64,000 bases of DNA from Sphingobacteriales bacterium (lineage in GTDB: Bacteria; Bacteroidota; Bacteroidia; Chitinophagales; CAIOSU01). Where the stretch lies: assembly GCA_027483645.1 (NCBI GenBank), contig JAIXUD010000009.1, forward strand, positions 242,814 to 306,813, written 5' to 3'. The position numbers and the translations under genes were made by a program. A model generated the notes under the pieces. It saw nothing but the letters and a program-made list of their open reading frames with translations, was not told the origin of the DNA and did no database searches. This document shows positions 20,780 through 62,084 of the stretch, in pieces; the stretch's first letter is position 1, and every line of letters begins with the position of its first letter.

Positions 20780-20854
20780 GGGCGCTTAGCTCAGCTGGTT
20801 CAGAGCATCTGCCTTACAAGCAGAGGGTCGTAGGTTCGAATCCTACAGTGCCCA
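20780..20854 (+). tRNA. tRNA-Val (anticodon TAC)
   Basis: A full cloverleaf can be drawn: acceptor GGGCGCT with AGTGCCC (one G-T pair), D-arm GCTC/GAGC, anticodon stem TCTGC/GCAGA around loop CTTACAA, and T-arm GTAGG/CCTAC with TTCGAAT. The anticodon TAC reads GUA valine codons. Its 3' half is the integration site of the island, which restores the gene exactly. Confidence 0.95.
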
Positions 20855-20855
20855 C
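20811..20855. repeat. attL: 45-bp direct repeat in tRNA-Val 3' half
   Basis: 45 bases from the anticodon arm through the acceptor end are repeated exactly at 61748-61792 in the same orientation. The identity stops at both edges, as expected for att core sites made by a tyrosine integrase. Confidence 0.9.
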
Positions 20856-21139: not shown

Positions 21140-22087
21140 ATGTTATTTGAAACAGCATTGGCACGTTACATTATCGTTAAACGTGCTGAAAATCTAGCAG
21201 AAAAAACCTGTTATACATACGAGCGCGATGTGCGACAGCTCTTTGAGTACTTAAAAAGGGAGGAAGTAGCAAGCGTTAGCAATGAGAATATTGAAAACTA
21301 TTTTATAGCCATATCCGCAACCCATAGTCCAAAGAGCAGACAGAACAAGGCAAACAGTTTGCGAGGGTTCTTCAAATATTGGTACGCAAAAAGGGAAGTG
21401 GAGGTGGCTTACGAACTAATAACCGGGCCACGGAAGATACCTGAACCGCAGCCCAATGTGATTAGCCATGAGCAGTTTGACTTGATTGATGATTACTTGG
21501 ACGAAGATGAGTATTACCAACTCACGCAAAAGCTTATCTTCAATCTGCTTTGGAATACCGGTATGAGAATTGGCGAATTGCTGTCTATTGACGTAACGGA
21601 CATTAACCTCCAGGAAAGACACTTAATGATAAGGTCGCTAAAGAGTAGAAGATTACGGATAGTAGTATGGAATGATGCTTGCCATAAACTATTGATAAAG
21701 TACCTAGGAGTAAGGATTTGCCTTAATCAGGCACCAGAGTTGTTCCAAACGCCGATAGGAGTTAGAAACCACCGCCGGACACGGTTAACCAGTCGAACCG
21801 TTCAGCGCTGGTGTAAGTTTCTAGCCTCAGAACTCGGATTTCCAATTAATCCCCATGCCTTTAGACATGGGCGTGGCCACTACATTTTACAAAATGGTGG
21901 CAGCAGAGAAAACATCCAAATCGCACTTGGCCATGTATCTATGGAATCCACCCATCATTACACACGCTTGAATACCCAAGAGCAAATTCGGCTACAAAGG
22001 CCATTTCTTCCAACCACTCGGAAGTTGGGCAAATCTCGAAGAGTTTCAACAACATTCAAACGTATAAAAGAAAAGAGCTTGCAATAA
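21140..22087 (+). CDS. Tyrosine recombinase, XerC/D-like
   Basis: A 315-residue recombinase with an N-terminal SAM-like core-binding domain (about 1-95) and a complete catalytic domain: Arg in NTGMRIGELL, Lys in RSLKSRR, H-x-x-R in HAFRHG, His in LGHVS and the nucleophile Tyr in HHYTRL. It lacks an arm-binding domain, unlike the integrase at the other end. It sits about 285 bp inside attL. It may resolve multimers, act on a second site or be left from an older element. The C-terminus is a basic tail (TFKRIKEKSLQ). Confidence 0.88.
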   Translation: MLFETALARYIIVKRAENLAEKTCYTYERDVRQLFEYLKREEVASVSNENIENYFIAISATHSPKSRQNKANSLRGFFKYWYAKREVEVAYELITGPRKIPEPQPNVISHEQFDLIDDYLDEDEYYQLTQKLIFNLLWNTGMRIGELLSIDVTDINLQERHLMIRSLKSRRLRIVVWNDACHKLLIKYLGVRICLNQAPELFQTPIGVRNHRRTRLTSRTVQRWCKFLASELGFPINPHAFRHGRGHYILQNGGSRENIQIALGHVSMESTHHYTRLNTQEQIRLQRPFLPTTRKLGKSRRVSTTFKRIKEKSLQ

Positions 22088-24139: not shown

Positions 24140-25570
24140 TCAAGGTGCTTTCTTGTCTCTATACTTCTTAAGTGTGTTCGGGCTTACATCAAGGATTTTA
24201 GAGGCTTTAGACACATTGCCATCACATAAGTACAGTACATGTATAATATGATTTTGTACCGCTTCTTCTAGCTTAAGTGTTTGACCATGCTGGGAATTCT
24301 TTAATATTCTGGATGGAAGCACATCTATTCCTACAATATTGCCGTTGGAATAAACATACATTGCCTCAATCATATTCTCCATTTCACGCAGATTCCCTGG
24401 GTAATGGTAACTTGTTAGGATGTCAAGCAATTCGTTCTTTAGGGTTATCGCTGTCCTAGAAAACTCATTTGCCTTTTTGTCGATGAAGTAATCAACATAA
24501 GCTCTCTTCTGTATAATTGTGAAATTCTTAACAGAAGGCAATTCAATTTCGGCAACAGCTAAGCGATAGTATAAATCAAATCGAAATTCATTATTAGAAG
24601 CCAGTGCCAGCAAATCCCTATGGGTGGCTGCGATCACCCTAACATCAACTTTCCGTTTCTCTGTAGAACCCACGCGCATGACCTGCTTATCCTCTAAAAC
24701 TTCCAAAATCGTACTTTGCATCTTCCTCGAAATATCGCCAATCTCATCTAAAAAGATAGTGCCACCATTAGCAGCACTAAAGTAACCATCTGTTCGGGTA
24801 GTCGCCCCAGTAAACGCGCCTTTTTCATGTCCGAAAAGCTGACTAGCTAACAATTCATCATTAAGGCCGGCACAGTTAACTTTAAAGAATGGCATTTTTT
24901 CCCTTGCAGATTTGATATGTATGTGTCTAGCTAGCATACCTTTTCCTGTTCCAGTTTCTCCAGTAATCAATACAGAAGAATTATGGGATAAGGCGATTTT
25001 ACTAGCTAAGTTGAACACTTTGATATTTGGCTCAAAAATTACATAGTCAAGCTGATTATTGCTTTGTTTTTTGCTTTTTTCATTATGCTCCTTGAATAAA
25101 AGGCCTGTTGTTACCGAATTGCTCTCCACATCCACATACCGAATCTCATGCTTTTCTGTTGACGTATGTTTTGGTTCTGCGATTTGAAATAACGTGATAC
25201 GTGCGCTCTGGTTTAGCTTTATAAGGTACCATGCAACTTGCATTGTCGGAGTGCCGGGAGAAATGAAGACCTCTAATTCATAATCTCTTTTAGAAATTAA
25301 AAACTCTAGAGTAGTATAATATACCTCTTTAATATCGGTAACATTTTGTATTGCCAAATGGACGTGCTCAATGGAATGGCCTGTATCAGTTTGCAATGAT
25401 TGTATTAATGTGCGGGTCTTAGCATCGGATTTTGGTGACGTGGTAGTAAGCAAAAAGTGCTTTTGATATTTGTAAAAGTGCCTATGAAGATTGTGGTTGG
25501 GGCCTTCAGTATTGACTTGACCATTTCGATAATCATTTACCGTCGCTATCCATGAAATTACTGCTTTCAT
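24140..25570 (-). CDS. Sigma-54-dependent activator with CARF-like sensor domain
   Basis: A 476-residue bacterial enhancer-binding protein. Residues 1-150 form a Rossmann-like domain with [12 protein letters not shown] (103-114), the pattern of CARF domains such as that of RtcR, which bind cyclic oligonucleotides or related nucleotide ligands. The AAA+ core has Walker A GETGTGKG (204-211), the sigma-54 contact loop GAFTGA (251-256) and Walker B TIFLDE (271-276). A Fis-type HTH ends the protein (about 445-472). No rtcA or rtcB lies nearby. It is divergent from the mobilization operon, with a strong palindrome between them, so that operon is its likely target. Confidence 0.85.
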
Positions 25571-25574
25571 CTGT

Positions 25575-25603
25575 CAATTTTTGATTAAAATAATCAAAAA
25601 TTG
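25575..25603. promoter_or_regulatory. 13-bp perfect palindrome: candidate activator-binding site (UAS)
   Basis: CAATTTTTGATTA and its exact complement TAATCAAAAATTG flank an AAA spacer. It lies 5 bp before the regulator ATG and about 85 bp before the expected transcription start of the divergent operon, the usual distance for a sigma-54 activator site. It could also mediate autorepression. Confidence 0.7.
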
Positions 25604-25648
25604 GCAATATTCAATTATCGTAATCCGCATAAACATTACACTTTCAAT

Positions 25649-25665
25649 TTGGTATGCCTTTGGGA
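25649..25665 (+). promoter_or_regulatory. Weak sigma-54-like promoter
   Basis: TTGGTATGCCTTTGGGA has the -24 GG (25651-25652) and a G at the -12 position with 12-bp phasing, but GG replaces the usual GC. Transcription would start near 25676, just before the ATG at 25689. Context, more than sequence match, supports it. Confidence 0.4.
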
Positions 25666-25688
25666 CAAATCAATACCAAAATCAAATC

Positions 25689-25874
25689 ATGGCCTTACTT
25701 ACTAATGCTGGCGACAATCCCATTCTGGAATATGAGTATATCGCTGTCAGCTATAAGAGACATTTAAGCATAGGCAAACTGCTTAAAGAACACTTCTGCA
25801 CTGAATCAGATATACTTTCCGATGAAGTATCAAAAATTTCTGAAAACCAATTACCAATAACCTCTGAAAAGTAA
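25689..25874 (+). CDS. Small protein opening the mobilization operon, 61 aa
   Basis: The ATG at 25689 (MALLTNAGDNPILEYEYIAV) is preferred over a TTG at 25581 that lies in the regulatory palindrome. The product is a small acidic soluble protein without a known motif. It is the first gene of a tightly packed run of seven same-strand genes ending with the relaxase (2 bp to the next gene). Confidence 0.55.
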   Translation: MALLTNAGDNPILEYEYIAVSYKRHLSIGKLLKEHFCTESDILSDEVSKISENQLPITSEK

Positions 25875-25876
25875 CT

Positions 25877-26884
25877 ATGAAAAACCAAACAAACTCGAGC
25901 ATCTCGTTTCTAGAACTTGAAGCCCAAATCGACAAAAAGCTCAAAGAGCTTCGAGCATCGGCCATGCATAATATTAGTATGGCTGCGGAAAAAGGCATGA
26001 ATCCAAATATCGTATTGGCTCAAACCGATGCCGATATCGAAGACTTAAAGGCCCTAGCTCTGCAATGGTTTCAGCCCCAGAGTAACCAGCTCAAAATTTT
26101 TCTTGAGCAAAGGCGATTGGAAAATACTCGTGTAGCCATTCAACAAAATCTCAAACCTGTTTTGGCCAGCCTTGATGGATTAAAAATAGAGATACAGCGT
26201 ATAACCCGTAACCACCCACAAAAATCATACTGGCAAGCAAAGGCAGTCATTTTATGTGCGGTAGGGTTAGATGCTATTTTCTCCTACAGAGCAATGCAGG
26301 TTGTGGCACCGAACATGATCGCCTCTTTTATTACTACCGCTGCCGCTGTCGGCGTTCTTGCGGGAGCTGCACATTTAATTGGAAGAAAAATGCGGTCATC
26401 GAGAAATCGCAGAGAAAAATTACTGTGGTTTTTTGCCGGATTCACTGGCGGTGCGATCGTGTTTATGGCACTGTCAATTTTCCGCCAAATTTTCTTTGGC
26501 GGGGGTAACGCGGTGGTCAACGTTGTGCTGTGGACACTTACCAACTTGTTTTTCTTCACCATTGCGCTGCTTACCTCTGCATATGCTTTGCCGAGCAAAG
26601 AGGAAGAAGAAATCTCCAACCAGCTTACAGGCTTGCAGAAAGAAGAAGAAAAACTGCTTCAAGCGAAACGGAATGAGGAGCAAACCCTCTCTCAAGCTGA
26701 AAACGAGCATAATAGCATTATGCAGCAAATGGGACAACTTAAATCCCAGGAGATAAATATGATGCACAAATTAGAAAAGCACAAGTTGTCGCTACACGCC
26801 GCCTTACTCTTGGAATTTGAACTAAAAGGCGGTAGTCGCAATAGCAAAGCCGACGGTTACAATATTAGCTCACCTCTTAATTAA
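25877..26884 (+). CDS. Polytopic membrane protein with coiled coils
   Basis: A 335-residue protein: an N-terminal helical region (1-115), about four transmembrane helices (near 120-245, e.g. ASFITTAAAVGVLAGAAHLI and ALSIFRQIFF...) and a C-terminal coiled coil rich in E/K/Q (about 255-315, EEEISNQLTGLQKEEEKLLQ). No family is recognised. Its place between the regulator and the coupling protein suggests a membrane accessory of mobilization. Confidence 0.75.
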   Translation: MKNQTNSSISFLELEAQIDKKLKELRASAMHNISMAAEKGMNPNIVLAQTDADIEDLKALALQWFQPQSNQLKIFLEQRRLENTRVAIQQNLKPVLASLDGLKIEIQRITRNHPQKSYWQAKAVILCAVGLDAIFSYRAMQVVAPNMIASFITTAAAVGVLAGAAHLIGRKMRSSRNRREKLLWFFAGFTGGAIVFMALSIFRQIFFGGGNAVVNVVLWTLTNLFFFTIALLTSAYALPSKEEEEISNQLTGLQKEEEKLLQAKRNEEQTLSQAENEHNSIMQQMGQLKSQEINMMHKLEKHKLSLHAALLLEFELKGGSRNSKADGYNISSPLN

Positions 26885-26890
26885 AACCCT

Positions 26891-27625
26891 ATGAAAACGA
26901 AAACCCTTCTCATTATACTGGCCATAGTGGTAAGTATGGTAGGCTTCGCCTCTTGCACTACCGAGTATCAAATAGAAGATACAGTAGGTTTAATAGATGT
27001 AACCGAACCGGATTTTATCCATGTGTCCTCAGCTTCGCTTAAAAAAAGCAACTCACTTGAAAAGAACCCTAACAACGGAACGCGTACTCAATTGTCTGCT
27101 TTAACGGAAATGGCCTTTAACCCAATACAAGTGGTCTACATAACGTCAGTAACACATGCATGGTTAGAAAATGAGTACGAGCGAAAGCAGGATGTTAAGA
27201 ACTATTATTCAGAATTGGATAGCATTCTTATGCATATGGACACAAGTCGAAAAGAACGTACCGGCTCTGTTATTTACCAAGTAGTTGCCCGAGAACTGAA
27301 TGCCCAAGCATCAAGAGATGCCGATGTGAAAACTATGATCATCAATAGCGATTTGCGGGAGAAAAGCGACCTTGCGGACTTTTATGATTCTACGCTACTC
27401 AACGCAATTGCAAGGGATTTTGATTCCACTGTCAATTCCATTATTGAAAAGTTCGAGAAAGCTTATCCTTTAAGTGATTTGCGAGGCATCACGGTACACC
27501 TCATTTATGAGCCAAAGACCGCCTTGGAGAGCCAGCGTTTCAACTTTACCTCAACACTCTATAAAAGAATTTTGGAGGCTAATGGGGCTGAAGTGATTAT
27601 TGGTGCTAATCTCCTCACCGAATAA
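26891..27625 (+). CDS. Lipoprotein of the mobilization operon
   Basis: 244 residues with signal MKTKTLLIILAIVVSMVGFASC (lipobox FASC). The mature part is mostly helical and charged and ends with an alpha/beta portion (LRGITVHLIYEPKTALES). It starts 6 bp after the membrane-protein gene. No known family; the envelope location and operon suggest a role linked to transfer or to a signal sensed by the CARF-like regulator. Confidence 0.75.
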   Translation: MKTKTLLIILAIVVSMVGFASCTTEYQIEDTVGLIDVTEPDFIHVSSASLKKSNSLEKNPNNGTRTQLSALTEMAFNPIQVVYITSVTHAWLENEYERKQDVKNYYSELDSILMHMDTSRKERTGSVIYQVVARELNAQASRDADVKTMIINSDLREKSDLADFYDSTLLNAIARDFDSTVNSIIEKFEKAYPLSDLRGITVHLIYEPKTALESQRFNFTSTLYKRILEANGAEVIIGANLLTE

Positions 27626-27626
27626 A

Positions 27627-27633
27627 AAGGAGG
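27627..27633 (+). promoter_or_regulatory. Strong Shine-Dalgarno (AAGGAGG)
   Basis: AAGGAGG lies 5 bases before the ATG at 27639, just after the lipoprotein stop codon. Such sites are rare in Bacteroidota genes and it fixes the start of the small membrane protein. Confidence 0.6.
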
Positions 27634-27638
27634 TTGAG

Positions 27639-27797
27639 ATGAAATGGTTGTTTCTCATTGGTAAGCTGCTTTGGGCACTCCTAAAGCTCTTCATGTATAT
27701 CGGCGGGTACTCCTTGTATGCTTCCGCCCGTCTTTCCGCAGTGTTACTAGAAGCACTTAGCGAAATATTAAAAATCCTATTAACAAAACGGTTATGA
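27639..27797 (+). CDS. Small membrane protein, 52 aa
   Basis: The ATG at 27639 follows a clear AAGGAGG. The product (MKWLFLIGKLLWALLKLFMY...) is a single hydrophobic helix followed by an amphipathic helix. It overlaps the coupling-protein start by 4 bp, so it is translated together with it and may be a small membrane partner. Confidence 0.65.
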   Translation: MKWLFLIGKLLWALLKLFMYIGGYSLYASARLSAVLLEALSEILKILLTKRL

Positions 27798-29296
27798 TAA
27801 CAGCACTCATTGATGCCTTGGTTGGTATCTTAAAGGCCTTGTTTTCTATAATGGGCGAGTTTGGCCAACTCCTGTATGACCTCATCTCTCAAAATACCAA
27901 ACCTGGCTATCACGATGTGATGGCCAGTTCTTGGAGCTTTCTTTCAAGATGGAATAAAGGCTTTAGTGTTAATGGAAGTCACACGGGAAAAATTACCGAA
28001 CAGATATCAAATAGGCATTTGGCAATTATAGGCCCTTCGGGTGCTGGAAAAACAACAACGACAATACTTGCCAGCATATTCCTCTTTATCAATCGTGGTC
28101 TAGGTATTGTCGTTAACGATATATCGGGGGAAATTCATGAGAAGACTTCGGGCTTTGCGAATCAAATGGGAATAAAGATCTTGGTATTTGATACCGAACA
28201 TCCTGAAACATCGGACTACTTTAATCCCTTAGCTTATGCCAATAACTCGGCACAGATAAGCCACATTGCGCACCTATTGATAAAGAGTAGTCTTGCAGGA
28301 AGCGGAAGCCCTAATGATGTCTTCTGGAATGAAAGTGCCTCAATGTTATTGTATATCATTATTAGTATGCAAAAGGAATTGCCAGAACGTTTTCAGAACC
28401 TTTACAATACTCGCTACCTCCTTAATCAAATTACGGTCGGCGGAAAAGATGCGACCATACTTGACCACCTATTTAGTCGCACAAAAAACCAAGCGCTGTA
28501 TGAAGAATATAAGGCGTTAGTCTATGGCTCTGACACGAAACTTCTTGCTAACGTGGTAAGCACCTGTAAAGCATCACTACGAGTGCTAAGTGATGAAAAC
28601 GTTGCTATCCTTACGAGCAAAAACACCATTGACTTTAACGAACTAAGAAAAGGGAATACTATAATATATCTCAAAGTGCCGGGATTGGCTGCTGAACGGC
28701 TTCGGCCAATTACCTCGCTGTTGATTGAAACATGCTTCGGCACCTTAATGTCCCGTTTACCAAATCCTCAAACTGATAAACCAGTGGCTTTCATACTTGA
28801 CGAGGTATCCAGCATGACACTTTCGCTTGAAAGTATTTTGGCCACCAGCCGAAAGTATATGCTCTGGGTTCTTTACGCCTTGCAACACCCCTCACAGCTT
28901 GATATGAACTATGGAAAGCATCAAGCAAAGAGCATCTTGCAGAATACTTATACAAAGTTGTATTTGCCGGGCCAGGAACAAGATGTGGCGCAACATCTTC
29001 AAGCGTCGCTAGGCCACAGGGATTTTATCGACCCTGATAATAAGAGCAAAAGGACGATGCCTCTTCGTACTGCTAGACAACTTCAAAAAATGCCCAAAAA
29101 TCAAGCTTTGGTCTTTGTCGGAAACGATGCCTTTGAAACCAAGCTTCGCCCATACTACAAACAGAGAAAGTTCAGGCAATACTCCGAGATAACCGAAGCA
29201 CATAGAGAACCGCAGGCTGTAAGTTTGCCACCATTAATCACGCTAAATGACCTTGAAGAATATGAGCAATCCGGAACAACAAAAGAAATGGCGTGA
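27794..29296 (+). CDS. Type IV coupling protein (VirD4/TraG family)
   Basis: A 500-residue DNA-pumping ATPase that brings the relaxase-DNA complex to a conjugation channel. A short hydrophobic N-terminus (1-35) precedes Walker A GPSGAGKTT (80-88) and ISGEIHEKTSGF; Walker B is VAFILDEVSS (about 330-340). FNPLAY (about 143-148) and LATSRKYMLWVLYALQ are typical of TraG/VirD4 proteins. No VirB4 homologue is encoded in the element, so it must use a channel made elsewhere. The 3' end overlaps the MobC-like gene by 35 bp. Confidence 0.92.
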   Translation: MITALIDALVGILKALFSIMGEFGQLLYDLISQNTKPGYHDVMASSWSFLSRWNKGFSVNGSHTGKITEQISNRHLAIIGPSGAGKTTTTILASIFLFINRGLGIVVNDISGEIHEKTSGFANQMGIKILVFDTEHPETSDYFNPLAYANNSAQISHIAHLLIKSSLAGSGSPNDVFWNESASMLLYIIISMQKELPERFQNLYNTRYLLNQITVGGKDATILDHLFSRTKNQALYEEYKALVYGSDTKLLANVVSTCKASLRVLSDENVAILTSKNTIDFNELRKGNTIIYLKVPGLAAERLRPITSLLIETCFGTLMSRLPNPQTDKPVAFILDEVSSMTLSLESILATSRKYMLWVLYALQHPSQLDMNYGKHQAKSILQNTYTKLYLPGQEQDVAQHLQASLGHRDFIDPDNKSKRTMPLRTARQLQKMPKNQALVFVGNDAFETKLRPYYKQRKFRQYSEITEAHREPQAVSLPPLITLNDLEEYEQSGTTKEMA

Positions 29297-29729
29297 GATG
29301 AAAAGAGCATATCGCAACCGACATAAAGCGGTTTGCGTGAGTTTTACCCAAGAACGCGGTAAAGAACTGCAAGAAATGGCCACCCTGCACAAGCTGCCGC
29401 TTGCGGACTTCGTAAAAGCTCTTGTCGAAGCCCACATTAAAGGCAATGGCTACGTTGTGCCGGATCATGGCCATATCGATCGACTTTCTTTTCTTTTGAG
29501 GAATGTAGCGACAAATATTAATCAGTTAGTAAGGTATGCCCATATTGAACAAGGTGTCAATTTTAGCGACATTCAAAAATTGCAACAGCAACTTGCAATT
29601 ATGGAGAGCCATATCAAACATACCTTATCCATTCCTCCACATATTGAAACAGTACTTACTGAATTTCTTAACCAATACCCAACCAAGCGTGAAAAGCTCA
29701 TACAGTTCTTAATTGCTTTCGAGCCATGA
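29262..29729 (+). CDS. MobC-like relaxosome accessory protein
   Basis: The ATG at 29262 (MSNPEQQKKWREMKR) overlaps the coupling-protein gene. The 155-residue product is basic at the N-terminus, has a ribbon-helix-helix-like segment (KAVCVSFTQERGKELQEMA) and the FLLRNVATNINQLVRYAH helix typical of MobC-family mobilization proteins. MobC-type proteins help the relaxase open oriT. The relaxase gene overlaps by 4 bp. Confidence 0.85.
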   Translation: MSNPEQQKKWREMKRAYRNRHKAVCVSFTQERGKELQEMATLHKLPLADFVKALVEAHIKGNGYVVPDHGHIDRLSFLLRNVATNINQLVRYAHIEQGVNFSDIQKLQQQLAIMESHIKHTLSIPPHIETVLTEFLNQYPTKREKLIQFLIAFEP

Positions 29730-30709
29730 TTATTAAACATGTGCCGGTAAAGAGAGGTACTGGCACAGTTGGTAGGGTAATTAACTATGTGGCCAAAGAC
29801 AAAGGTCGCATAGAAGATTACAGAAACCAAGGAGTATTCCATAACCTCCTTTCAACGGACCTTGAATCTATTGAAAAAGAGTTTGAACAAAATTATGAGG
29901 AATATGCTGTTAAGAGGTCTAATGGAAACAAAGCCATTCACTGCATTCTTTCCCTAAACCCCTTGGATAGGAAACATGCCTCAATAAGCATGATGGACGA
30001 TTTAGTGAGAACGTACCTTGATAGAGCATTTCCCAAAGCCCTTGCTTTTGCCACTCACCATATGGAACAAGAACACTGGCACTCCCATGTACTGGTTTCT
30101 GCAAATAAAGTAATGTCCAAAGAGGGTACACGGCTTTCTAAACAAGACTTGAAGGACATCCACCAGTACATGCTTGATTACATGCAGCAAAAGTATCCGC
30201 AACTAACCCAAGGGGTGGATATGGCAAGCTGGGGCAAAAGGCTCAAAAGTGAAAAGGCGTATTATCAGCGAAAGCGACATCCTGAAACTACTCTAACTAA
30301 AGATATTCTTGCCGAGAATGTACAACGGGTATTTCGGGCAAGCCAATCCTCCAAGGATTTCCACCAGCGACTTGCTGAAGCCGGCTACCGTACCTACCTC
30401 CACAAAGGGGAAGTAAAAGGTGTTTTTTGGCAGCATGAAGATGCCCAAAAGAAAATGCGTTTTAGCCGACTTGGCATAGATGATAATGCGCGCTCGGCAC
30501 TAGACAAACAAAATGTAAGGCTTCAAGAATTGGAGACATTACGTTCAAATCAATCTTCCGCTCGTGTTCACGAGCCAAGGCAGATGCCAAACCTTAAACC
30601 AGGTCAAAATGCACAAGAAAAGGGTGCAGAGGATATTGCAAAAGATCAGCCGAATCAGGCAAATGCTCTTCAACAACATCATTTACAAAATCCTAACTTT
30701 GACCGATAG
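29726..30709 (+). CDS. MOBP-type relaxase (MobA/VirD2 family)
   Basis: A 327-residue relaxase, the nickase that starts transfer at oriT. Y21 in INYVAKDKG is the likely nucleophile; the three-histidine metal site is in HHMEQEHWHSHV (111-122); IHCILSLNP (71-79) is the preceding motif. The C-terminal third is a Gln/Asn-rich tail without a helicase or primase. It ends the operon with the coupling and MobC-like genes upstream. Confidence 0.92.
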   Translation: MIIKHVPVKRGTGTVGRVINYVAKDKGRIEDYRNQGVFHNLLSTDLESIEKEFEQNYEEYAVKRSNGNKAIHCILSLNPLDRKHASISMMDDLVRTYLDRAFPKALAFATHHMEQEHWHSHVLVSANKVMSKEGTRLSKQDLKDIHQYMLDYMQQKYPQLTQGVDMASWGKRLKSEKAYYQRKRHPETTLTKDILAENVQRVFRASQSSKDFHQRLAEAGYRTYLHKGEVKGVFWQHEDAQKKMRFSRLGIDDNARSALDKQNVRLQELETLRSNQSSARVHEPRQMPNLKPGQNAQEKGAEDIAKDQPNQANALQQHHLQNPNFDR

Positions 30710-35465: not shown

Positions 35466-37220
35466 TTACAATTTCATTTTTAAGATTTCGAGCGCCTCAA
35501 GAAATACTATATCTTCCTGTTTGATAACATTTTGAATTTTAGTACGACTAAATACATCTGGGGTTATTCCTATTCCGTAAAATACAGACCCATCATTCCA
35601 TCGAACGTCTAATGCCGTATATCTTACTGTATAGCTATTGGGCAACTCAATAAAATTGACAACCCCATCAGTTCCTGCAGTGTTGTCGCCAACGATCGTC
35701 CCAAGGTTGTATTTTTTTATTAGGCCAATTATGGTTTCGGCATAGCTTTGGGCACCGGAGCCCGTCATGCAAACCATGGGACAAGAAAAAGTTGGCGATT
35801 TTGGTGAAAAGCTCCAAGTGAAATTAACTGTGCTCGTATCAGGAACATATCCTAAGAATCTCGGCCCATAATATATCGGCAGTATTCTTTTAGTGCTTAT
35901 TAGTTCTTTCCCAGTGAAGTGCCTTAATACGGCCAAGGCCGTGTATGGTTCTTTCGGATAACACCTTAAATCTAGTAAGATACCTTTGGCCGCAGCAAGC
36001 TTTGAAATCATTGGTTCGAAATCTGCCTTTGTTAGTGCGCAGAGGTTAATATAAAACATATTCGATTCAAGTTCGTAAACGCTTCCCTTTGATGGTTTTC
36101 TGACAGGAAAGTTTATCGGTGGAGAAGAAGTTCGTTTCAAAGTAAGGGAATATTCGTTACCATTTGGTTTTCTAATGTCAAGCTTTATGAAGGAACCCTC
36201 ACGTCCGCTTAAGCAATAGTAAGAAGCAAACCTTTTACGAGCGGTTGGGGTCGCAACGGCTAGAATGTATTGCCCTACGCTGTCTATGTATGCTCCAGCG
36301 TCAACGCCGTCTATCTTGATTATTGCATCGCCTAGTCGAATATCTAATGACGAATCGAATGCGGTAACCACAAGCTGGTTTTCTATCCATAATGCTGTAA
36401 GGGGAGGTATAGCAGCTATTGATTGAATGGGCGTATTGCGTTCATAGATTGCGCCATGCGCATCACCGAGCTGTGATACCATTCTTATCAGCGCATTTTG
36501 ATAGCCGTCACCATCAAACAAAACACTTAAACTACCCCTTAAATTTTCCGTCCATAAATCTAGGGGGCTAATATAGGGGTGAAAATGCAACAGTTCATTC
36601 CAGCAAATTATCAGTGATGCTACTTGCCGAGTAATGCTGTCTGCCTTATCTGGAAATGGAGAATTTTGCGAAATTGGATTAGGCCCCTTTGCTGCTAAGA
36701 CAATTGGAAAAGAAGCCCATCCACTAGTGCCTAAGGGGACAGTCACAATCTCCTTTCCTGTCAGATAATGAGGCAGCTTAGAGAGTGGTTTCTTTACTAT
36801 GTTACTGGAAAACATTTTAGCAGCGTCAGGATTCGCACTGAGTCCTTTATATCCAGCATGTTTCCAAAAAATTACTTTCTGTTTGTTGCTGTATACGAGA
36901 GGTGACACCGCAACCGGTTTTCTATCTCGTGTGAATTGCATTTCAGGAATCATCTGGAATGCTTTTCTTAAGCTGTCCACTAACTCTTCATCCGTTTGAG
37001 CATTAATAACTTTGCTGATACCTGCCATAGCAAATTGCTGCCAGTAAAGCTCGCCCTGCTTGATGCCTGGATAAAAGTATTTTATGCAACCGTAAAGTTT
37101 CGAAAAAACGACTATATTCTCAACACGTCTATCCTTTGCTTGGTTGCTAGCGAGGGTTAAGCTGGGACGTGCTAGCAGTAATAATAAAAGCAAAGGTAGT
37201 ATGAAAGACAGATTCTTCAT
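35466..37220 (-). CDS. S41-family peptidase in the lanthipeptide operon
   Basis: A 584-residue protein with signal peptide (MKNLSFILPLLLLLLLARPS), a helical N-terminal domain, a PDZ-like part (about 285-365) and an S41 protease domain: the serine lies in GSGAQSYAETI and the lysine region in IVGDNTAGTDG. S41 peptidases occur in some Bacteroidota lanthipeptide loci, where a leader-cleaving role is possible. It is the last gene of the operon and its start meets the LanB stop at one base. It acts outside the cytoplasm. Confidence 0.85.
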   Translation of the reverse strand: MKNLSFILPLLLLLLLARPSLTLASNQAKDRRVENIVVFSKLYGCIKYFYPGIKQGELYWQQFAMAGISKVINAQTDEELVDSLRKAFQMIPEMQFTRDRKPVAVSPLVYSNKQKVIFWKHAGYKGLSANPDAAKMFSSNIVKKPLSKLPHYLTGKEIVTVPLGTSGWASFPIVLAAKGPNPISQNSPFPDKADSITRQVASLIICWNELLHFHPYISPLDLWTENLRGSLSVLFDGDGYQNALIRMVSQLGDAHGAIYERNTPIQSIAAIPPLTALWIENQLVVTAFDSSLDIRLGDAIIKIDGVDAGAYIDSVGQYILAVATPTARKRFASYYCLSGREGSFIKLDIRKPNGNEYSLTLKRTSSPPINFPVRKPSKGSVYELESNMFYINLCALTKADFEPMISKLAAAKGILLDLRCYPKEPYTALAVLRHFTGKELISTKRILPIYYGPRFLGYVPDTSTVNFTWSFSPKSPTFSCPMVCMTGSGAQSYAETIIGLIKKYNLGTIVGDNTAGTDGVVNFIELPNSYTVRYTALDVRWNDGSVFYGIGITPDVFSRTKIQNVIKQEDIVFLEALEILKMKL

Positions 37221-40200
37221 TATTGCATATTTTTATTATTGATAGCTATCCACGAACCGTATGCCAAAGAAACCAAATCATATGCGAGAGTTTCCTTCTG
37301 GTTCGTTCTATTCGTGAACAGCCTATTTAGGCTCATGTGTATCAAAGATATGACAATATCCTTCTTAGCGTCGCCATCTACACGTTCTAAAAGTTGCTTT
37401 ACAATGGCCTGGTTTGCCACATGCCGTTCCCTCATAACCCGAATGGCATCAATTACCATGGAATCGTCGAATGGCTGATGCAGCAGAAATTTCAACACCA
37501 TCTTCTTTAACTCCTTGTTTCCATCATTCTCCAATTTCATCGCGATATTGCCCATGCCAATTTTTGCGGCTAAGGCATTTTTCGTCAATTCAAGCATGTC
37601 CTTCCCTTCAGAAATATTTAAACCAAATTCTTCCAGTATGAAGTGAATATTGAATAGTGCTGCGGTAAAGAAAATCTTTTCAGAATCCTCCTGGCCATTA
37701 AACTGCCGTATGATTTCATACATGCATACAGAGTCATGGTAAAAGTATGTCTCAATATCTAGCATGTTCTCTACTCCATACCTTAAATATTCTTTGTGGT
37801 ATATATCCGTCTGCACTTTGTGGATGAGCTTACTAGAAAGCTTCCTACTTGCCATTTCCATAAAAACAGCCAGGCACTCCGCTTTCTTGCCGTCCATTGG
37901 CTCAAGCCTTATCCTCAGGTGAAACTCCTCGTCAAAATACTTTACAAAAAACCACTTTTTAATTAATTTTTTCTTCTGGAGATGTTCAATTATTTCTGGA
38001 ACGGCCACTAAGAGAATCGAATCAAGCACGTTAGGGTTAGCATATACTTTTACATATACCCATTCATTGCCAAAGAAGACATCATTTTCTCGCTCCGTAT
38101 CCTCTCCATAGTAGGTCGGGTTACCAATCTTCGGAGTATCCTTGAAGAATGACACTATGACTTCATTGGTATACGTTTCCCCATCACTGCATTTTACTAG
38201 GAAATTCTCATCGTGAAGATGTTCTGAAACGTGCACCACATGCCCTTTTATTACTTCATTTAAGAACATCTCACAGCTTAGGTGGCTGTCAAAATCAACA
38301 AGCAATTTCTGATCGCCGTTGTTTATCGTAACAAGTCTTGGCAACTTATACTTCGAGCGTACATATTTGGCTAGCTTAAGGGAATCGGGCTCCGATTTCA
38401 TCATCTGGATGTCATCTGGGAAGAATTGCCAACTGGCAGGAGCCAGAACAACGTTACGGAAAGTTACCCTTGGCATAAAGCATGCATGATGCTTTATGCT
38501 GCCCCAATCGAAGTTAAGCCCTTGAAATGTGTTTTGAGTCTGCAAGTCACTCAGGAATTGATAGAGTGACAGGTCGTCTGTGGGATAGTTATGCGCATTG
38601 CTCAATTTCGGTAGAATGTACCTGTTCAACGCCTTAGAACGCAAGCGGACATCATTGTTGGCTACGCTCACCATTAGGTCGCCAAGGGAAATTTGTTTCG
38701 CAGAGTTAAGCGCAAAGTTACTGAATACTGTGATTTCATACTCCCGGAAAGAGAGTCTACCAGTAATGTTACCAAGGGATGCTTGCGATAAGTTGTTTAT
38801 CTCCGCTATGAGGTAGGAATCTCGGTTATCCTTTTCCTTGGCACATATAGCCTGTATCAGGCTGCTCATTTCCGCATTAATATGGCCAAATCTCCCGAGC
38901 ATAGACGCTGCTGTTGCTCCGCTTGCCATTATGAACTCTATCTTATCGCTTCCCACATCTTTGTCCTGCCCATAAATTCTAAATAAAATGGAGAAAGTAT
39001 CAGAGAGCATTTGGGCGCTTCCTGCATCTTCAGATAGGTCACTCTCATTTATGGTTATTTCATACTCTCCATTCATTAACGCGGACAGGTATCTTTTCGC
39101 CAAGAACCCAGCGAATTGGTTTTTTCCAACTGAATGGTCTAAATTTAAGTCAGGATATTTGTAGTTGTTAAGGTTGGCATATCTGATACCAATTTCTGGA
39201 TCAAGCACTTCTAGTAGGGGAACCTCTTTTTCGCCGTACCGCTTGATAAACTGCGACTTGAATTTATCCAGTGTCGGGTTTACAGATAGGCCATTCTCGT
39301 TTCCCGGTTCCAATATGGGAAGGCATTTGGCCAACGTGTCGATAGTTTCTTGAGATATGATGGCCACACTAGCTTGCTTGTACAAAACGGAATGTAACAC
39401 GTTATGACTGCTTAACCCTAAATCCACTTTCAGAGTCTCCAATGAGGATATTACTTCCTCACTTTGGCCAATTGCCGTTTTCCTAATATCTTCAAGTGCC
39501 TTCTGTACCGCTGGAAAATGTATGCTGATATATTCCGGAGTGTCTTCCTCAAATGGATTTTGGGATTCTATGCTTCCCAGAGAAGCGTCGCTAAGCAATA
39601 CTTTTGACTCAATTGCTTTACCAATATACTCCTCTGAGTCAACCTTTGTATAGCCGAGTGAAGTTAGTGCCTTTATAAGATCGTCGTAGCCATAGTATTT
39701 GGGCGATGACTTTATTAGTGCATGTAGTAGTGGAGAATAGGGTATCTCCGCAAGCTCATACTTACAACGTAACCCTTTCTCCGTAAATCCTAAATACCGT
39801 ATACACTCTCCGTTAAGCCAAGCTGTTGGATTTACAGCATATTTCTGAAGAGGGTACAAGCTCGAATCTCCAGCCAGGCGATTGAGCAACGCGCTTAGGA
39901 AAGACGAGTCAATCTTGAATTTTCTATCATACTCCTGTATGCGCGATAAAGTAACTAGCGAGTTTTCTTTCCCGATGTGAGCAACGGATAGGCCAGCATT
40001 TAATCCGAACGGTGTACACCGCGTTGACATTCGGGTTAAGTACTTAACTAATGATATTATTACTGACCTCCTCTCCTTAGTAGGGAGAGTGCAATCAATG
40101 AGTTTCTTACAGTGCTTATATAGTGCTGGGCTCGATAGGTAGAGTGCCTCTAAAAAAATAGGGTTACTTATCGTTTGCAAGAAGCTACTTTCACTTTCCA

Positions 40201-40276
40201 AAGCCATCTTCAAAGAGGAGAAAGGAAACAGAGGAGTTCGAACAACCGCCACTTTGAAATTATCGTATGATCCCAT
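37220..40276 (-). CDS. Full-length class I lanthipeptide dehydratase (LanB)
   Basis: A 1018-residue LanB-type enzyme that dehydrates Ser/Thr of a precursor using glutamyl-tRNA. The N-terminal glutamylation domain starts KVAVVRTPLFPFS and has LVKYLTRMSTRCTPFGLNAG, the RxTPFG signature. The C-terminal SpaB_C-type elimination domain (about 730-1000) contains WVYVKVYANP, IEHL and HLRIRLEP. Both halves are joined in one chain, as in Firmicutes NisB-type enzymes. It is 9 bp after the LanC gene. Confidence 0.9.
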   Translation of the reverse strand: MGSYDNFKVAVVRTPLFPFSSLKMALESESSFLQTISNPIFLEALYLSSPALYKHCKKLIDCTLPTKERRSVIISLVKYLTRMSTRCTPFGLNAGLSVAHIGKENSLVTLSRIQEYDRKFKIDSSFLSALLNRLAGDSSLYPLQKYAVNPTAWLNGECIRYLGFTEKGLRCKYELAEIPYSPLLHALIKSSPKYYGYDDLIKALTSLGYTKVDSEEYIGKAIESKVLLSDASLGSIESQNPFEEDTPEYISIHFPAVQKALEDIRKTAIGQSEEVISSLETLKVDLGLSSHNVLHSVLYKQASVAIISQETIDTLAKCLPILEPGNENGLSVNPTLDKFKSQFIKRYGEKEVPLLEVLDPEIGIRYANLNNYKYPDLNLDHSVGKNQFAGFLAKRYLSALMNGEYEITINESDLSEDAGSAQMLSDTFSILFRIYGQDKDVGSDKIEFIMASGATAASMLGRFGHINAEMSSLIQAICAKEKDNRDSYLIAEINNLSQASLGNITGRLSFREYEITVFSNFALNSAKQISLGDLMVSVANNDVRLRSKALNRYILPKLSNAHNYPTDDLSLYQFLSDLQTQNTFQGLNFDWGSIKHHACFMPRVTFRNVVLAPASWQFFPDDIQMMKSEPDSLKLAKYVRSKYKLPRLVTINNGDQKLLVDFDSHLSCEMFLNEVIKGHVVHVSEHLHDENFLVKCSDGETYTNEVIVSFFKDTPKIGNPTYYGEDTERENDVFFGNEWVYVKVYANPNVLDSILLVAVPEIIEHLQKKKLIKKWFFVKYFDEEFHLRIRLEPMDGKKAECLAVFMEMASRKLSSKLIHKVQTDIYHKEYLRYGVENMLDIETYFYHDSVCMYEIIRQFNGQEDSEKIFFTAALFNIHFILEEFGLNISEGKDMLELTKNALAAKIGMGNIAMKLENDGNKELKKMVLKFLLHQPFDDSMVIDAIRVMRERHVANQAIVKQLLERVDGDAKKDIVISLIHMSLNRLFTNRTNQKETLAYDLVSLAYGSWIAINNKNMQ

Positions 40277-40285
40277 GAATACGTA

Positions 40286-41521
40286 TTATGAAAGCAATAG
40301 GATTCTATCCCAGTCAGGAGAAGTATCGTCAACGTATGCTATCAATGAAAGTCCAATTCCTGATATGCCATTAAGAAAGCTGTTCGAAGGAACCCAAATA
40401 AGCTCATCATTGTCATCATACTCCTTTTTTAAGAAGGTACGCTCCTTCGCATCGGGATGGCGGCCATGGGTAAGCAAATACCTAAAGCCCAATAATGACG
40501 CGTCCCTATACTCGCTCACTCCGGTGTGTTGGTACAACCGGTTAAACAAGTGAGCCGCCCCTGAGGTACCATGACACAAGCATCCCTCATAGCTGTAAAT
40601 TCGGGGATCAAGATTTCTAACGCAGTGGACTGCTATGTGCTGGGCTTTCTCCAACATCAGATTATTCCGAAAATTTTTTCCTGCTAAATACAATGAATTC
40701 GCAATACCTAAATCTCCATAGCACCATGAGAGACGGGAGAGTTGCTTATGACCATCCTCGTATATCTTACCAGGATACATGCAAACGCTATCCTGAAGCT
40801 CTTGTGTTATCAGCCAATCATAGGTCCCGTTTGCTAATGATAATACGTGCCTGTCAGCGTCAAGGCTCTCGTACATTTTAGAAAGCATCACTATTATACT
40901 AGGCATGCCATGAGCCAAGCCTAGATTCACTCCTACGGATGGATAGGAGTCGTATATCTGCTTTTCATTCCAGTAGATACCTGAGGCTTGTATTATTGCG
41001 GAATCGGAAAGTATTTCTACAGTAGTCCTCATAGCTTTCTCCTTTATGGGACTATCTTCGCTTTCCAAAAAATAATTGGTAATTCCCAGCAGCCCGTGCA
41101 GAGTGTCGTAGTCGCCGTCGGAGCCCATTTCAAGCAAGCATTCATACATCTGTCTTTGTATGCTTTCGATATCTAGTCGAAAGAACCGTAATGGCAATCC
41201 TTTGGCTTTTAGATGCTCATGCATCCAGAGGATTCCAGCAATCCCATTACTAAACGTTGGGGGAAGTATACCCTCATAGAGCGAGTTGATGCTGGTTTTA
41301 TAATAGTACTCGCACAACTCTTTATGTAAAGAGTTATGCGAGTATGAGTATAGGTATGCATAGAATAGTGCAGTTCCCGCCGTTCCATTTAAAAGGCTAG
41401 GTGGTTCTTTCCATGTCTCTTCACTAGGCATCAATGCTTGAGCTAAGCTATCGAGAGTTTCATTAACGAAAGAATTCTCATCTGGCGGACAAATCCTTTG
41501 CCAATCTTCATGAAGGACCAT
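40286..41521 (-). CDS. LanC-like lanthionine cyclase
   Basis: A 411-residue (alpha/alpha)6-barrel protein. Zinc ligands are C267 (LSWCYGDLG), C316 and H317 (CLCHGTSG), and the catalytic histidine is H204 in GLAHGMPS. LNGTAGTALF and SNGIAGILW are two of the GG motifs. It adds Cys thiols to dehydrated residues to form lanthionine rings, working after the LanB gene product. It is 6 bp after the next unknown gene. Confidence 0.9.
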   Translation of the reverse strand: MVLHEDWQRICPPDENSFVNETLDSLAQALMPSEETWKEPPSLLNGTAGTALFYAYLYSYSHNSLHKELCEYYYKTSINSLYEGILPPTFSNGIAGILWMHEHLKAKGLPLRFFRLDIESIQRQMYECLLEMGSDGDYDTLHGLLGITNYFLESEDSPIKEKAMRTTVEILSDSAIIQASGIYWNEKQIYDSYPSVGVNLGLAHGMPSIIVMLSKMYESLDADRHVLSLANGTYDWLITQELQDSVCMYPGKIYEDGHKQLSRLSWCYGDLGIANSLYLAGKNFRNNLMLEKAQHIAVHCVRNLDPRIYSYEGCLCHGTSGAAHLFNRLYQHTGVSEYRDASLLGFRYLLTHGRHPDAKERTFLKKEYDDNDELIWVPSNSFLNGISGIGLSLIAYVDDTSPDWDRILLLS

Positions 41522-41527
41522 GTATAT

Positions 41528-42469
41528 CTATCTTTGCAATGTCGTCGTGCGAGTTGGACCTACCGCTATGCCCGGTCCTGAATCTGGACAGTCTGGCCTT
41601 CCAATAATGTTACAGGTATTGGGCCATCCAGTTCCTGGAGTGCCTTCGCAGCATTTTCTTCTAGGGTTGGTACCAAATCTGGAAACGAATGGCACACCCG
41701 TCGGATCCCACCCGCCCCCATCGCCGCTATATCCTATGTTTACACCAGCTATCGACCGCCTTTCAAAATTAAGGGTTGGTGGGTAGTTTGCCCAGTTGAG
41801 CCAGATAGTGCCAAAGGTGGCAGCTAATGCGCCTGCAACAATGGTGACATAGTTGCTGCCTGACACATCAGTACAACCTTTGCTAGAGGGAATAACAGAC
41901 GATAACGTTTCGCCGATGATAGCACCTTTTGCGCCAACTCCAATCCAATAAGGCAGCTGTAATTGATTCACGCCTTCTATTGAAGACAAAACACTGGTCC
42001 AATCTCCCGGAGAGCCTATGATTTCGTTAAAGTAAGTACGATTTGCTTCAGCAATAGCCACACCCATTAACACAGAAGCTTTTGCCTCGGTGCTTAACTC
42101 TTGCTGCATGGTAGAATCCCCTACAAAATTTATGTAATCCCCAATAGTGTTAAGTGGAATTTTCTTTACACCTACCGTTAACTGGTTTATTAATGCAATC
42201 TGATTCTCTGAAAAAACTTCCGCGAATGCGCATTCTGGATCGACATACGCATTGTAGAAGCTTCCTAGATACGATTTGATTTGCAATTGCTGTTGGATTG
42301 TAACAGGATCGGAATAATACGTGGTAGAAATAAAATCATAAAGAGCATTGCCTAATGCTTCCTCATCGGGCGTAGGCGCTGCTGCCATTACCGCGGCGAT
42401 GGAGTTCAAGCCGGTTTGATACGTCTCTATCAATGCTTGATAACTGTTGATAAAAGTTCTTTGTGCCAT
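41528..42469 (-). CDS. Unknown protein with Cys-rich tail: candidate lanthipeptide substrate
   Basis: A 313-residue protein with no signal peptide. Residues about 1-190 are helical and share a block (LQLPYWIGVGAKGAIIGE) with the neighbouring 42502-43611 protein (RLPYWVCAAIYGALAQ). A hydrophobic Gly/Ala part follows (about 195-225). The last 60 residues are Gly/Pro-rich with four cysteines and many Ser/Thr (RRKCCEGTPGTGWPNTC, then GRPDCPDSG, TRTTT). Being 6 bp before LanC and having a modifiable tail, it may be an unusually large precursor. No canonical short precursor is seen. Confidence 0.6.
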   Translation of the reverse strand: MAQRTFINSYQALIETYQTGLNSIAAVMAAAPTPDEEALGNALYDFISTTYYSDPVTIQQQLQIKSYLGSFYNAYVDPECAFAEVFSENQIALINQLTVGVKKIPLNTIGDYINFVGDSTMQQELSTEAKASVLMGVAIAEANRTYFNEIIGSPGDWTSVLSSIEGVNQLQLPYWIGVGAKGAIIGETLSSVIPSSKGCTDVSGSNYVTIVAGALAATFGTIWLNWANYPPTLNFERRSIAGVNIGYSGDGGGWDPTGVPFVSRFGTNPRRKCCEGTPGTGWPNTCNIIGRPDCPDSGPGIAVGPTRTTTLQR

Positions 42470-42501
42470 GATATGAAGTTGGTTTAGTTATGAATTACTA
42501 T

Positions 42502-43611
42502 CTAAGCTCGCGTATAGAAGGAAGGTAATAGGGTGTGGTATGGAATAAGGTGAATGATTTTTGCATTGCTAACCCCAAGGCCACCCAATAGCGAGGCGAC
42601 CATCTGGTTGCTGGTTGAGCATTGATCGGGCTGCGCTAACGCTCCATATATTGCAGCGCATACCCAGTAAGGGAGACGAGCCATGTTTTCAGATGCATCA
42701 GGGGCGAAGTAACCTGACGAGTACCAGTTATTGCTAGGTACATCAATTGCTGCTAATAGGTATTCATAGCAGCTTAAGCCCTCTTGTAGCGCAATTAACA
42801 GAGGAAATTTCTGTTTGTCAGAAAGATTAAATTGATTAATATTATTTATGATGCCCTTAATAGTATTATCGATTGAATTTACAGGATTGCCAAGTACTGC
42901 CTTGAATACTGAGTTGATTAAACAATATTGGTTAGTATCGTACAATGGCACATAACCACGGATATAGTTATTTACAGCCATTTCTACGGTGGAAGTATAC
43001 TCAATATGCGCTACTGGCAGCATAGAGGCATTTTCAAAATATATAGTGATGTTATCAAAGCTTCCTTCGTCTCCAGGCACAGCTCTTGTTGGTTCTCCTG
43101 ATGCCATGGTCTGTTCATAATATCCATTACCTAGATCTGCCAATCCATTTGGATTCATAAACTGTGCTACTTCAATGCGGCCAATCTCTATCCATTCGAT
43201 GGTTGACAAAAGATACGCGAATATCGAGCCGTTAGGTAAAATTTTCAGTGCAGTAGTGTCTGGTGGAAATGTATATCCCTGATGAAGTACATAACCTTCA
43301 TCGGAGGTAACAATTTTTCCTTCCACATCTAAAATAAAATCTTTCCCTGTTGTATATATTATTGAGCCAAGAGGACTTTCGATTTGAAAGAATGTAAGTG
43401 GCAAGCCCTGTACGCTAAGTCTTAATAATACTTCTTCAAAGGTAGTAAAACTTAAATAGTAGCCTATTTCGGGACAAAAAACTCTCTGTACATATTGACT
43501 TACAAGCGCAGCTAGTTGTTTTTCGTCAATGGGGTTTGTGAGGTTTTGCTCAATAAAGGACATCCCACCATTAAAGATTCCAGCTACTGAGATGTCTTGC
43601 AATGGTATCAT
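42502..43611 (-). CDS. Unknown operon-leader protein sharing a domain with its neighbour
   Basis: A 369-residue protein, first in the lanthipeptide operon. The N-terminal half (about 1-200) is strand-rich (LGSIIYTTGKDFILDVEGK). The C-terminal half is helical and repeats the layout of the next protein, with WYSSGYF... ENMARLPYWVCAAIYGALAQ (about 300-330) and a closing LLGGLGVSNAK. It has few cysteines, so it seems less likely to be a substrate. The seven-copy 10-bp repeat lies just upstream. Confidence 0.6.
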   Translation of the reverse strand: MIPLQDISVAGIFNGGMSFIEQNLTNPIDEKQLAALVSQYVQRVFCPEIGYYLSFTTFEEVLLRLSVQGLPLTFFQIESPLGSIIYTTGKDFILDVEGKIVTSDEGYVLHQGYTFPPDTTALKILPNGSIFAYLLSTIEWIEIGRIEVAQFMNPNGLADLGNGYYEQTMASGEPTRAVPGDEGSFDNITIYFENASMLPVAHIEYTSTVEMAVNNYIRGYVPLYDTNQYCLINSVFKAVLGNPVNSIDNTIKGIINNINQFNLSDKQKFPLLIALQEGLSCYEYLLAAIDVPSNNWYSSGYFAPDASENMARLPYWVCAAIYGALAQPDQCSTSNQMVASLLGGLGVSNAKIIHLIPYHTLLPSFYTRA

Positions 43612-44439: not shown

Positions 44440-45342
44440 TTACCTAAACCTAAAAAGATAGTCCGCTGCCTTTCCCGCTGCCCACGACGCGGAAAGGAAA
44501 GCCGTCCTGTTCTCCTTTAAAAGTTCATAATAATGCAAAAGGTACACGGCAGAGTTTTGGAAAAGCTCGGCAGTTTGGTAGCCCAAGTCTTGTGATAGAA
44601 ACACACTTGCCAGTTCTGCAATTAGTTCTTCATAGGCATATTGGCTAGGCTTCTTACGCAAAGAAAAGTTTAGCCCACGATTAAGCCTTGAGGCATGACC
44701 AGTCCAATGGGATAACTCATGGAACAAAGTAGCGTAGTAACCGTCCGAGCCTTGGAACTGCTCCAACAACGGCAATACAATTTTATCCATCGTCGGATTG
44801 TAATAAGCTCTGTCCTGGGTAATACGCTCGATGTTTGCACCTGTGTTCCGCACCATCTGCTCCAGTTCCTCCACAGTAGCAAATTTAACGGTCGGCTTTT
44901 CCTGTTCGGTGGGTGCAATGTTCAACCCATCCACCTGTGCGAAGTTGAAAACAACATAATAGCGCAAAAGGCTCTTGGTCTCTGTTACCGCCTCGCCTGT
45001 GTCCGGGTCGTCCTTTTCATCCTTGGTCTTTTTGAAATAGACAATGGGCGTGCCTTTTTCGCCCTTGCGCACATGCCCGCCAAACTGCTGCACCTGCTTA
45101 AAGGTAAGCCATGCGTTGTGCTCGTAGCTCTTTAGCATCAATTGCATTTGCAATATCAGGAAATTGGAGCGGGAATAAGGGCGGTTCGTGCCGAGGTTGT
45201 ACGGTGCCCCTATTTTGCTATCCACCGCCCAAGGACGGTGCCACTTCGTTTGGTTGCCTTGTTCAATCAAGGCTTCAATCGTCTCGAATATTTGCGAGGA
45301 AACAATGTCCCGCACGTTCATTTTAGTTGCTGTCGATGCCAT
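44440..45342 (-). CDS. ArdC-like antirestriction/ssDNA-binding protein with metallopeptidase domain
   Basis: A 300-residue protein. The N-terminal ArdC domain (about 8-140) includes NFLILQMQ, HVRKGEKGTPIVYFKK and YYVVFNFAQVDGL. The C-terminal zincin-like domain has HELSH (208-212) with a downstream H216 as zinc ligands. ArdC proteins protect incoming single-stranded DNA from host restriction during conjugation, so it fits the backbone of a transmissible element. It lies about 50 bp downstream of the next gene on the same strand. Confidence 0.88.
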   Translation of the reverse strand: MASTATKMNVRDIVSSQIFETIEALIEQGNQTKWHRPWAVDSKIGAPYNLGTNRPYSRSNFLILQMQLMLKSYEHNAWLTFKQVQQFGGHVRKGEKGTPIVYFKKTKDEKDDPDTGEAVTETKSLLRYYVVFNFAQVDGLNIAPTEQEKPTVKFATVEELEQMVRNTGANIERITQDRAYYNPTMDKIVLPLLEQFQGSDGYYATLFHELSHWTGHASRLNRGLNFSLRKKPSQYAYEELIAELASVFLSQDLGYQTAELFQNSAVYLLHYYELLKENRTAFLSASWAAGKAADYLFRFR

Positions 45343-50143: not shown

Positions 50144-50146
50144 TCA

Positions 50147-51508: not shown

Positions 51509-51509
51509 A

Positions 51510-52304
51510 CTATACTGCTACCGGAGCTTTTATAGGGGGGTGCGGGTTATATCCTTCAAGTTTAAAATCTTCGTACTTAAAGTCAAAAATGGAAGTTACT
51601 TTAGGATTTATCAACATTTTAGGGTAAGGTTGGGGTTCTCTGCTTAACTGTAGTTCGACTTGATTAATATGATTGAGGTAAATATGGGTATCAGCTAAGC
51701 TATGTATAAATTCTCCTGGTTCATATCCACACACTTGTGCAAACATCATAGTCAATAATGCATATGATGCTATATTAAATGGAACGCCTAAAAACATATC
51801 CGCACTGCGTTGAAACATCATGCACGACAATCTTCCATTTGCAACATAGAATTGAAACAATACATGGCAAGCTGGTAAAGACATGTCTTCAATATCTGCA
51901 ACGTTCCATGCACTTACTATAATTCTACGAGAATTCGGGTTTTTCTTCAGAGCTTCAACGGCTTGACTTATCTGGTCAATGTTTTTTCCTCCAGGTGTTG
52001 GCCATGAACGCCATTGATATCCATAAATTGGACCTAAATCGCCGCCGGGTCTAGCCCACTCATCCCAAATGGTCACACCATGTTGATGTAGATAGTTTAT
52101 ATTCCTTTCTCCTCGTAGGAACCAAAGCAATTCATAAATTATTGATTTAAGATGTATTTTCTTTGTCGTAATCAGAGGGAACCCCTTCTGTAAATCAAAA
52201 CGCATTTGTTGTCCGAACACGCTTAATGTTCCGACACCAGTTCTATCTGTTTTTTTTACTCCATTTTCTAAAACAAAACGAAGGAGATCCTCATATTGAT
52301 TCAT
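51510..52304 (-). CDS. thyA: Thymidylate synthase (mobile copy)
   Basis: A canonical 264-residue ThyA, the same length as the Escherichia coli enzyme: catalytic C146 in LPACHVLF, R126-R127, [20 protein letters not shown] for substrate binding and the C-terminal KAPVAV. It makes dTMP from dUMP with methylene-tetrahydrofolate. A full housekeeping gene opening a mobile operon is odd: the next gene follows after 1 bp. It may raise dTMP, replace a host copy or serve the modification or defence chemistry downstream. Confidence 0.95.
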
Positions 52305-61574: not shown

Positions 61575-61594
61575 ACTCTTAAGATACGAAACAC

Positions 61595-61747: not shown

Positions 61748-62076
<329 letters not shown>

Positions 62077-62084
62077 AAATTCCC

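Follow-up and report, generated by a model that had tools for sequence, protein, structure and literature searches.

A CARF-domain sigma-54 activator that appears to control the mobilization operon of an integrative element in Bacteroidota

CARF sensors are known to pick up alarm signals, both in defence and in the repair of RNA. RtcR, a CARF-AAA+-HTH sigma-54 activator with a divergent target operon, switches on the rtcBA RNA-repair operon (PMC7790460). RtcR-like CARF-AAA-HTH regulators also adjoin restriction-modification (R-M) systems (Makarova et al. 2014, PMC4012209) and occur at CoCoNuT defence superoperons, where they are proposed to switch on the cluster upon RNA fragments with cyclic ends (PMC11090510). 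Control of transfer by regulators carried on the element itself is known from Bacteroides CTnDOT, whose RteA/RteB/RteC cascade includes a two-component system, RteA/RteB, with tetracycline exposure as its signal (PMC1976400). The regulator family, the type of transfer genes described below and element-borne transfer regulators are thus already known singly. We found no description of a CARF-sigma-54 sensor coupled to mobilization genes in the literature searched, which had the 2020 CARF classification outside it.

We analysed a window of 64,000 nucleotides (the whole stretch of DNA under study) in contig C10 of a 4.27-Mb Sphingobacteriales genome and compared it with loci of the same phylum, Bacteroidota. 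A first-pass annotation had proposed that a CARF-type sigma-54 activator in this window controls a mobilization operon. The regulator shares with RtcR the CARF-AAA+-HTH architecture and the divergent operon, but it stays under the RtcR equivalog cut-off (270 vs 650 bits) and has no rtcA or rtcB nearby. It is closer to the RtcR_PspF2--CARF_AAA_HTH group (PDLC01995; PMC4012209) in its architecture, its full-length profile match and the operator pair upstream of its gene; those relatives adjoin defence operons, whereas this sublineage adjoins a mobilization operon. The CoCoNuT regulators are likewise CARF sigma-54 proteins next to a gene cluster, but what they target are restriction systems, which almost always run in the regulator's own direction, while here a mobilization operon is divergent. 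CTnDOT offers a parallel in that element-borne regulators turn on excision and transfer genes upon a signal; unlike the present case, it relies on a tetracycline-responsive two-component system and has no CARF domain.

The regulator and its relatives

The regulator gene (24140-25570, minus strand) encodes an intact protein of 476 residues, which PADLOC, Pfam and a structural model identify as a CARF-AAA+-Fis HTH sigma-54 activator of the RtcR_PspF2 family. The PADLOC profile PDLC01995 (RtcR_PspF2--CARF_AAA_HTH) matches residues 2-473, that is, the full length, with E=1.9e-112, compared with a much worse 1e-53 for the PADLOC RtcR profile, and the score against the NCBIfam RtcR equivalog (269.7 bits) falls short of its cut-off. 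Pfam recognizes Sigma54_activat and HTH_8. The GAFTGA loop and Fis HTH reported at first pass are both there: the AAA+ motifs are intact, including the GAFTGA sigma-54 contact loop and the Walker motifs, and the Fis HTH lies at the C-terminus. rpoN is encoded in the host genome. The reported lack of rtcA and rtcB nearby also holds, as the neighbours of the regulator are a recombinase, hypothetical genes and the mobilization operon; the host has one RtcB-like gene, on another contig.

We used structure prediction to assess the N-terminus, which had been called CARF-like from its sequence. Residues 1-165 were modelled with AlphaFold2 from an alignment of five family members, and the best model reached a mean pLDDT of 84.9 (70 to 76 in the other four). 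All 33 Foldseek matches of this model at E<=0.001 were CARF proteins, the first being Csm6 in complex with a cyclic hexa-adenylate analogue. VIA-align returned a Z score of 15.0 to Cdn1 (138 residues, 2.7 A) and of 14.5 to Csm6 (149 residues, 3.3 A). The modelled domain resembles CARF receptors of cyclic oligoadenylates (Csm6, Can2, Cdn1 and Card1), and a CARF fold for the regulator N-terminus is therefore supported by the model.

Relatives of the regulator occur in approximately 1-3% of sampled genomes, with 3 strong matches in 395 genomes, 10 in 395 and 12 in 398 in separate searches; viral contigs held none, and only one marginal match to the coupling protein of the operon. Type I R-M operons adjoin relatives at five loci (L006, L009, L041, L042 and L047), and type III-B CRISPR is directly divergent from a relative on an Aureispira plasmid and in genome G1100. 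By sequence inspection, type III genes or cas1 adjoin relatives in L090, L091 and L092. Putative reverse transcriptases do so in L089 and L135, and one relative adjoins a helicase beside BREX. The first-pass view, which tied the known CARF-type sigma-54 regulators to RNA repair, was accordingly too narrow, given R-M systems (PMC4012209), CoCoNuTs (PMC11090510) and the type III CRISPR loci found here. Against this background, the mobilization operon is a departure from the usual defence-operon neighbourhood of the family. Type III-B CRISPR (cmr) operons are directly divergent from the relatives at L045 8995-10443 and L140 7575-9020 (reverse complement), a layout that suggests that cyclic oligoadenylate or infection feeds back on the transcription of CRISPR.

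The mobilization operon and its element

Seven packed genes (25689-30709, plus strand) diverge from the regulator and end in coupling protein, MobC-like protein and relaxase, all as originally described. The first gene (25689-25874) encodes 61 residues with no assigned function. It is followed by a coiled-coil membrane protein of 335 residues (25877-26884), a putative lipoprotein of 244 residues (26891-27625) and a small hydrophobic ORF of 52 residues (27639-27797). The last three genes encode a VirD4-type coupling protein (T4CP; 27794-29296; Pfam T4SS-DNA_transf, 2.7e-44), a MobC-like accessory protein (29247-29729; Pfam MobC, 1.6e-4, at 22.5 bits just under the cut-off of 23.2) and the relaxase (29726-30709; Pfam Relaxase, 7e-9), a relative of which was absent from a plasmid search. 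A five-gene module spanning 25877-30709 recurs in approximately 20 loci (L070-L076, L101-L115, L133 and L134) in the order coiled-coil membrane protein, putative lipoprotein, T4CP, MobC-like protein, relaxase. Its first two proteins, kept across the module loci, are without Pfam or PDB match; a profile of the lipoprotein likewise gave nothing useful in either database, and its single-sequence fold reached a pLDDT of only 33.

The operon lies in an element of approximately 41 kb flanked by 45-bp repeats of a tRNA-Val gene. The left repeat (20811-20855, plus strand) is the 3' part of an intact tRNA-Val(TAC) gene (20780-20855), and the right repeat (61748-61792, plus strand) is identical to it. 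One tyrosine recombinase lies near each end: an XerC/D-type enzyme by the tRNA-Val gene (21140-22087, plus strand) and a second one close to the right end (60216-61670, minus strand). Attachment repeats and a site-specific recombinase, by which an integrative mobilizable element is recognized, are thus both present. The element has a relaxase and a T4CP, and Pfam recognized no conjugation pore genes in its larger ORFs; on these sequence grounds it is best read as mobilizable. A same-genus genome yielded no clean empty site, as its tRNA-Val carries the 45-bp core with no further match on the right. Just past the right attachment repeat, at 62084-62162, is a degenerate tRNA-like copy with the tRNA-Val 3' end, which may be left over from an earlier insertion or a tandem one.

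Operators, promoter and recurrence of the pairing

The perfect 13-bp palindrome noted at first pass between regulator and operon is present at 25575-25603 as CAATTTTTGATTA-AAA-TAATCAAAAATTG, and just one further inverted repeat in the 64 kb has arms of at least 13 and a spacer of at most 10. We dropped the reading of this palindrome as a single site in favour of two tandem 11-bp predicted operator sites, TCAATTTTTGA (25574-25584) and TCAAAAATTGG (25594-25604), which follow a family motif, TCAW-N3-WTGA, lie 20 bp apart and together form the palindrome. The motif, drawn partly from the 18 first-round loci themselves, occurs in 9 of them at no more than 110 nt from the regulator start, vs 0.43 expected. 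Among loci fetched after the motif was fixed, 5/9 carry it, vs 0.29 expected, and none of 1000 shuffles reached 5; in this held-out set, L137 apparently duplicates the first-round record L045 and L139 and L142 are near-duplicates, which leaves an independent count of 4/7. Pairs at exactly 20 bp are found in 12 of 24 non-duplicate loci (0.65 in shuffles, with a maximum of 3), while other distances, from 11 to 44 bp, are each found in 1 to 9 loci. The pair would serve as a family-wide operator. It provides a concrete prediction for the whole family of defence regulators (the motif twice, 20 bp apart) that applies to R-M, CRISPR and mobilization loci alike.

We then asked how often regulator and module occur together. 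The module had first been reached via relaxase relatives. Of 22 module loci inspected, four have a divergent CARF-sigma-54 gene upstream: the window (G000), L075 (G403), L133 (G735) and L134 (G777), the last with two small genes between regulator and module. The L133 and L134 regulators surfaced in an unselected CARF-domain search of 398 genomes of the order. The other 18 copies are without the regulator, which is therefore not needed for mobilization in general. The operator pair scores 15 or 16 of 16 in all four mobilization-linked loci; in 17 modules without regulator, none scores above 14. Since four diverged elements have the divergent arrangement in common, the pairing is, judged by sequence comparison, not a chance one. 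Each of the two recombinases in the window's element has a homologue near the G403 pair (52% for 21140-22087, in L146 15701-16486, and 26% for the second), and a tRNA-Val(TAC) gene (L134 3449-3524), the same type of site as that of the window's element, lies approximately 2 kb from the G777 pair.

The closest relative of the window regulator that we found is the L133 regulator (44%), and the L075 and L134 regulators are sisters at 100/99. When the four were forced together, the likelihood rose above that of the free tree (p-AU 0.67), and they may form one clade. A first tree, with only two pairs, had left the window regulator unplaced, with a p-AU of 0.24 for one clade. A single clade was rejected for the four relaxases (p-AU 1e-18, four state changes), as it had been with two pairs (p-AU 0.015); the sister of the L075 relaxase is the one at L071, a locus without the regulator. 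Because the regulators are possibly one clade and the relaxases are not, the regulator would have been combined anew with differing versions of the module. The simplest reading of these trees is that one mobilization-specific regulator lineage was passed among them, although independent recruitment is possible.

These comparisons bear on whether a regulator of the defence type could have come to lie beside the operon by an accident of element assembly, with targets elsewhere and only self-regulation at this locus. The relatives do adjoin R-M, CRISPR and other defence operons, and the operators almost touch the regulator's own start codon, the nearer site ending 3 bp before its ATG. We nevertheless regard such an accident as unlikely, since the divergent arrangement is the same in four separate elements whose relaxases are not a clade, and all four have the operator pair at the common promoter region.

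A weak -24/-12 site had also been reported between the two transcription units, and we recovered it in the expected place: a candidate sigma-54 promoter, TTGGTATGCCTTTGGGA, at 25649-25665 (plus strand). Its -24 half is good, its -12 half is poor, with GG in place of GC, and taken alone it is borderline (shuffle p=0.05). Its place is conserved in relatives. The centre of the operator pair is approximately 87 bp upstream of the predicted transcription start. The -24 element HTGGYAY, directed away from the regulator and 60-110 nt distant, is found in 6 of 18 loci vs 0.79 expected and in 4 of 9 later loci vs 0.31 expected. L042 and L138 have full consensus sigma-54 promoters. L133 lacks HTGGYAY in the 200 nt next to the regulator start, and L075 has it only at approximately 190 nt from the regulator.

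The intergenic operators and the weak -12 half in the window would also suit a repressor or roadblock, whose binding between the genes silences a housekeeping promoter until a ligand relieves it. However, GAFTGA and Walker motifs serve sigma-54 activation, and the AAA+ domain retains both. The housekeeping promoter TAnnTTTG, named at first pass as the rival start, is absent from 25561-25900 on both strands, and across the family -24 elements show enrichment at a single distance, with perfect promoters at L042 and L138, so that we consider repression quite improbable. Least probable, and in our view very unlikely, is that CARF control is exerted on a defence effector made up of the membrane protein and the lipoprotein, with the transfer genes carried along downstream: defence operons are the usual targets of the family and the 335-residue protein has a very weak SLATT-like score (Pfam, E=0.044), but both genes are joined to T4CP, MobC-like protein and relaxase in approximately 20 loci, mostly without the regulator, which favours a role in transfer.

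Proposed switch, its ligand and other cargo of the element

The proposal that the CARF sigma-54 activator controls the mobilization operon is strongly supported by the recurrence in four elements, the family-wide operator and the enriched -24 element, and is weakened by the poor -12 half of the window's own promoter. We consider it probable that the element carries a ligand-responsive CARF-sigma-54 switch for its own mobilization operon. Regulator dimers would bind the two tandem sites at 25574-25604, between the regulator gene and the operon. Binding of a nucleotide-type ligand by the CARF domain would cause the AAA+ domain to form an oligomer, and this oligomer would open sigma-54 polymerase at the predicted promoter near 25649. 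Membrane protein, lipoprotein, coupling protein, MobC-like protein and relaxase would then be turned on and, as no conjugation pore was recognized, the element would ride on the type IV system of another element. The regulator probably limits its own synthesis as well, because the operator overlaps its own leader.

Ligand-driven oligomerization has been shown for RtcR (PMC7790460), and by analogy RNA ends with cyclic phosphate are a plausible ligand here. A cyclic oligoadenylate made by the host is doubtful: no Cas10 palm domain was detected there, which makes supply from a resident type III system unlikely. Such a molecule could come from a co-resident element or be met in another host. More tentatively, and at somewhat under even odds, mobilizable elements may have adopted a distinct CARF-sigma-54 sublineage as an escape switch, with transfer starting upon a nucleotide alarm signal or RNA cut during infection or stress. 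The recurrence in four elements suggests that some mobile DNA senses the cell's alarm molecules before moving; if the sublineage controls mobilization in several elements, mobile DNA would read the same alarms to time its leaving.

The window contains further genes of note. A lanthipeptide-type cluster (35466-43611) comprises a split LanB-like dehydratase protein, a LanC-like cyclase and an S41 peptidase, and an ArdC-like antirestriction protein with a metallopeptidase domain is encoded at 44440-45342. Genes for an ORC-CDC6-like ATPase, PRTase-CE, a DNA methylase and a thymidylate synthase are clustered at 47179-52304, which looks like an element-borne conflict or DNA-modification system. At 53102-55456, a DUF4365 domain is fused to a dynamin-like GTPase.
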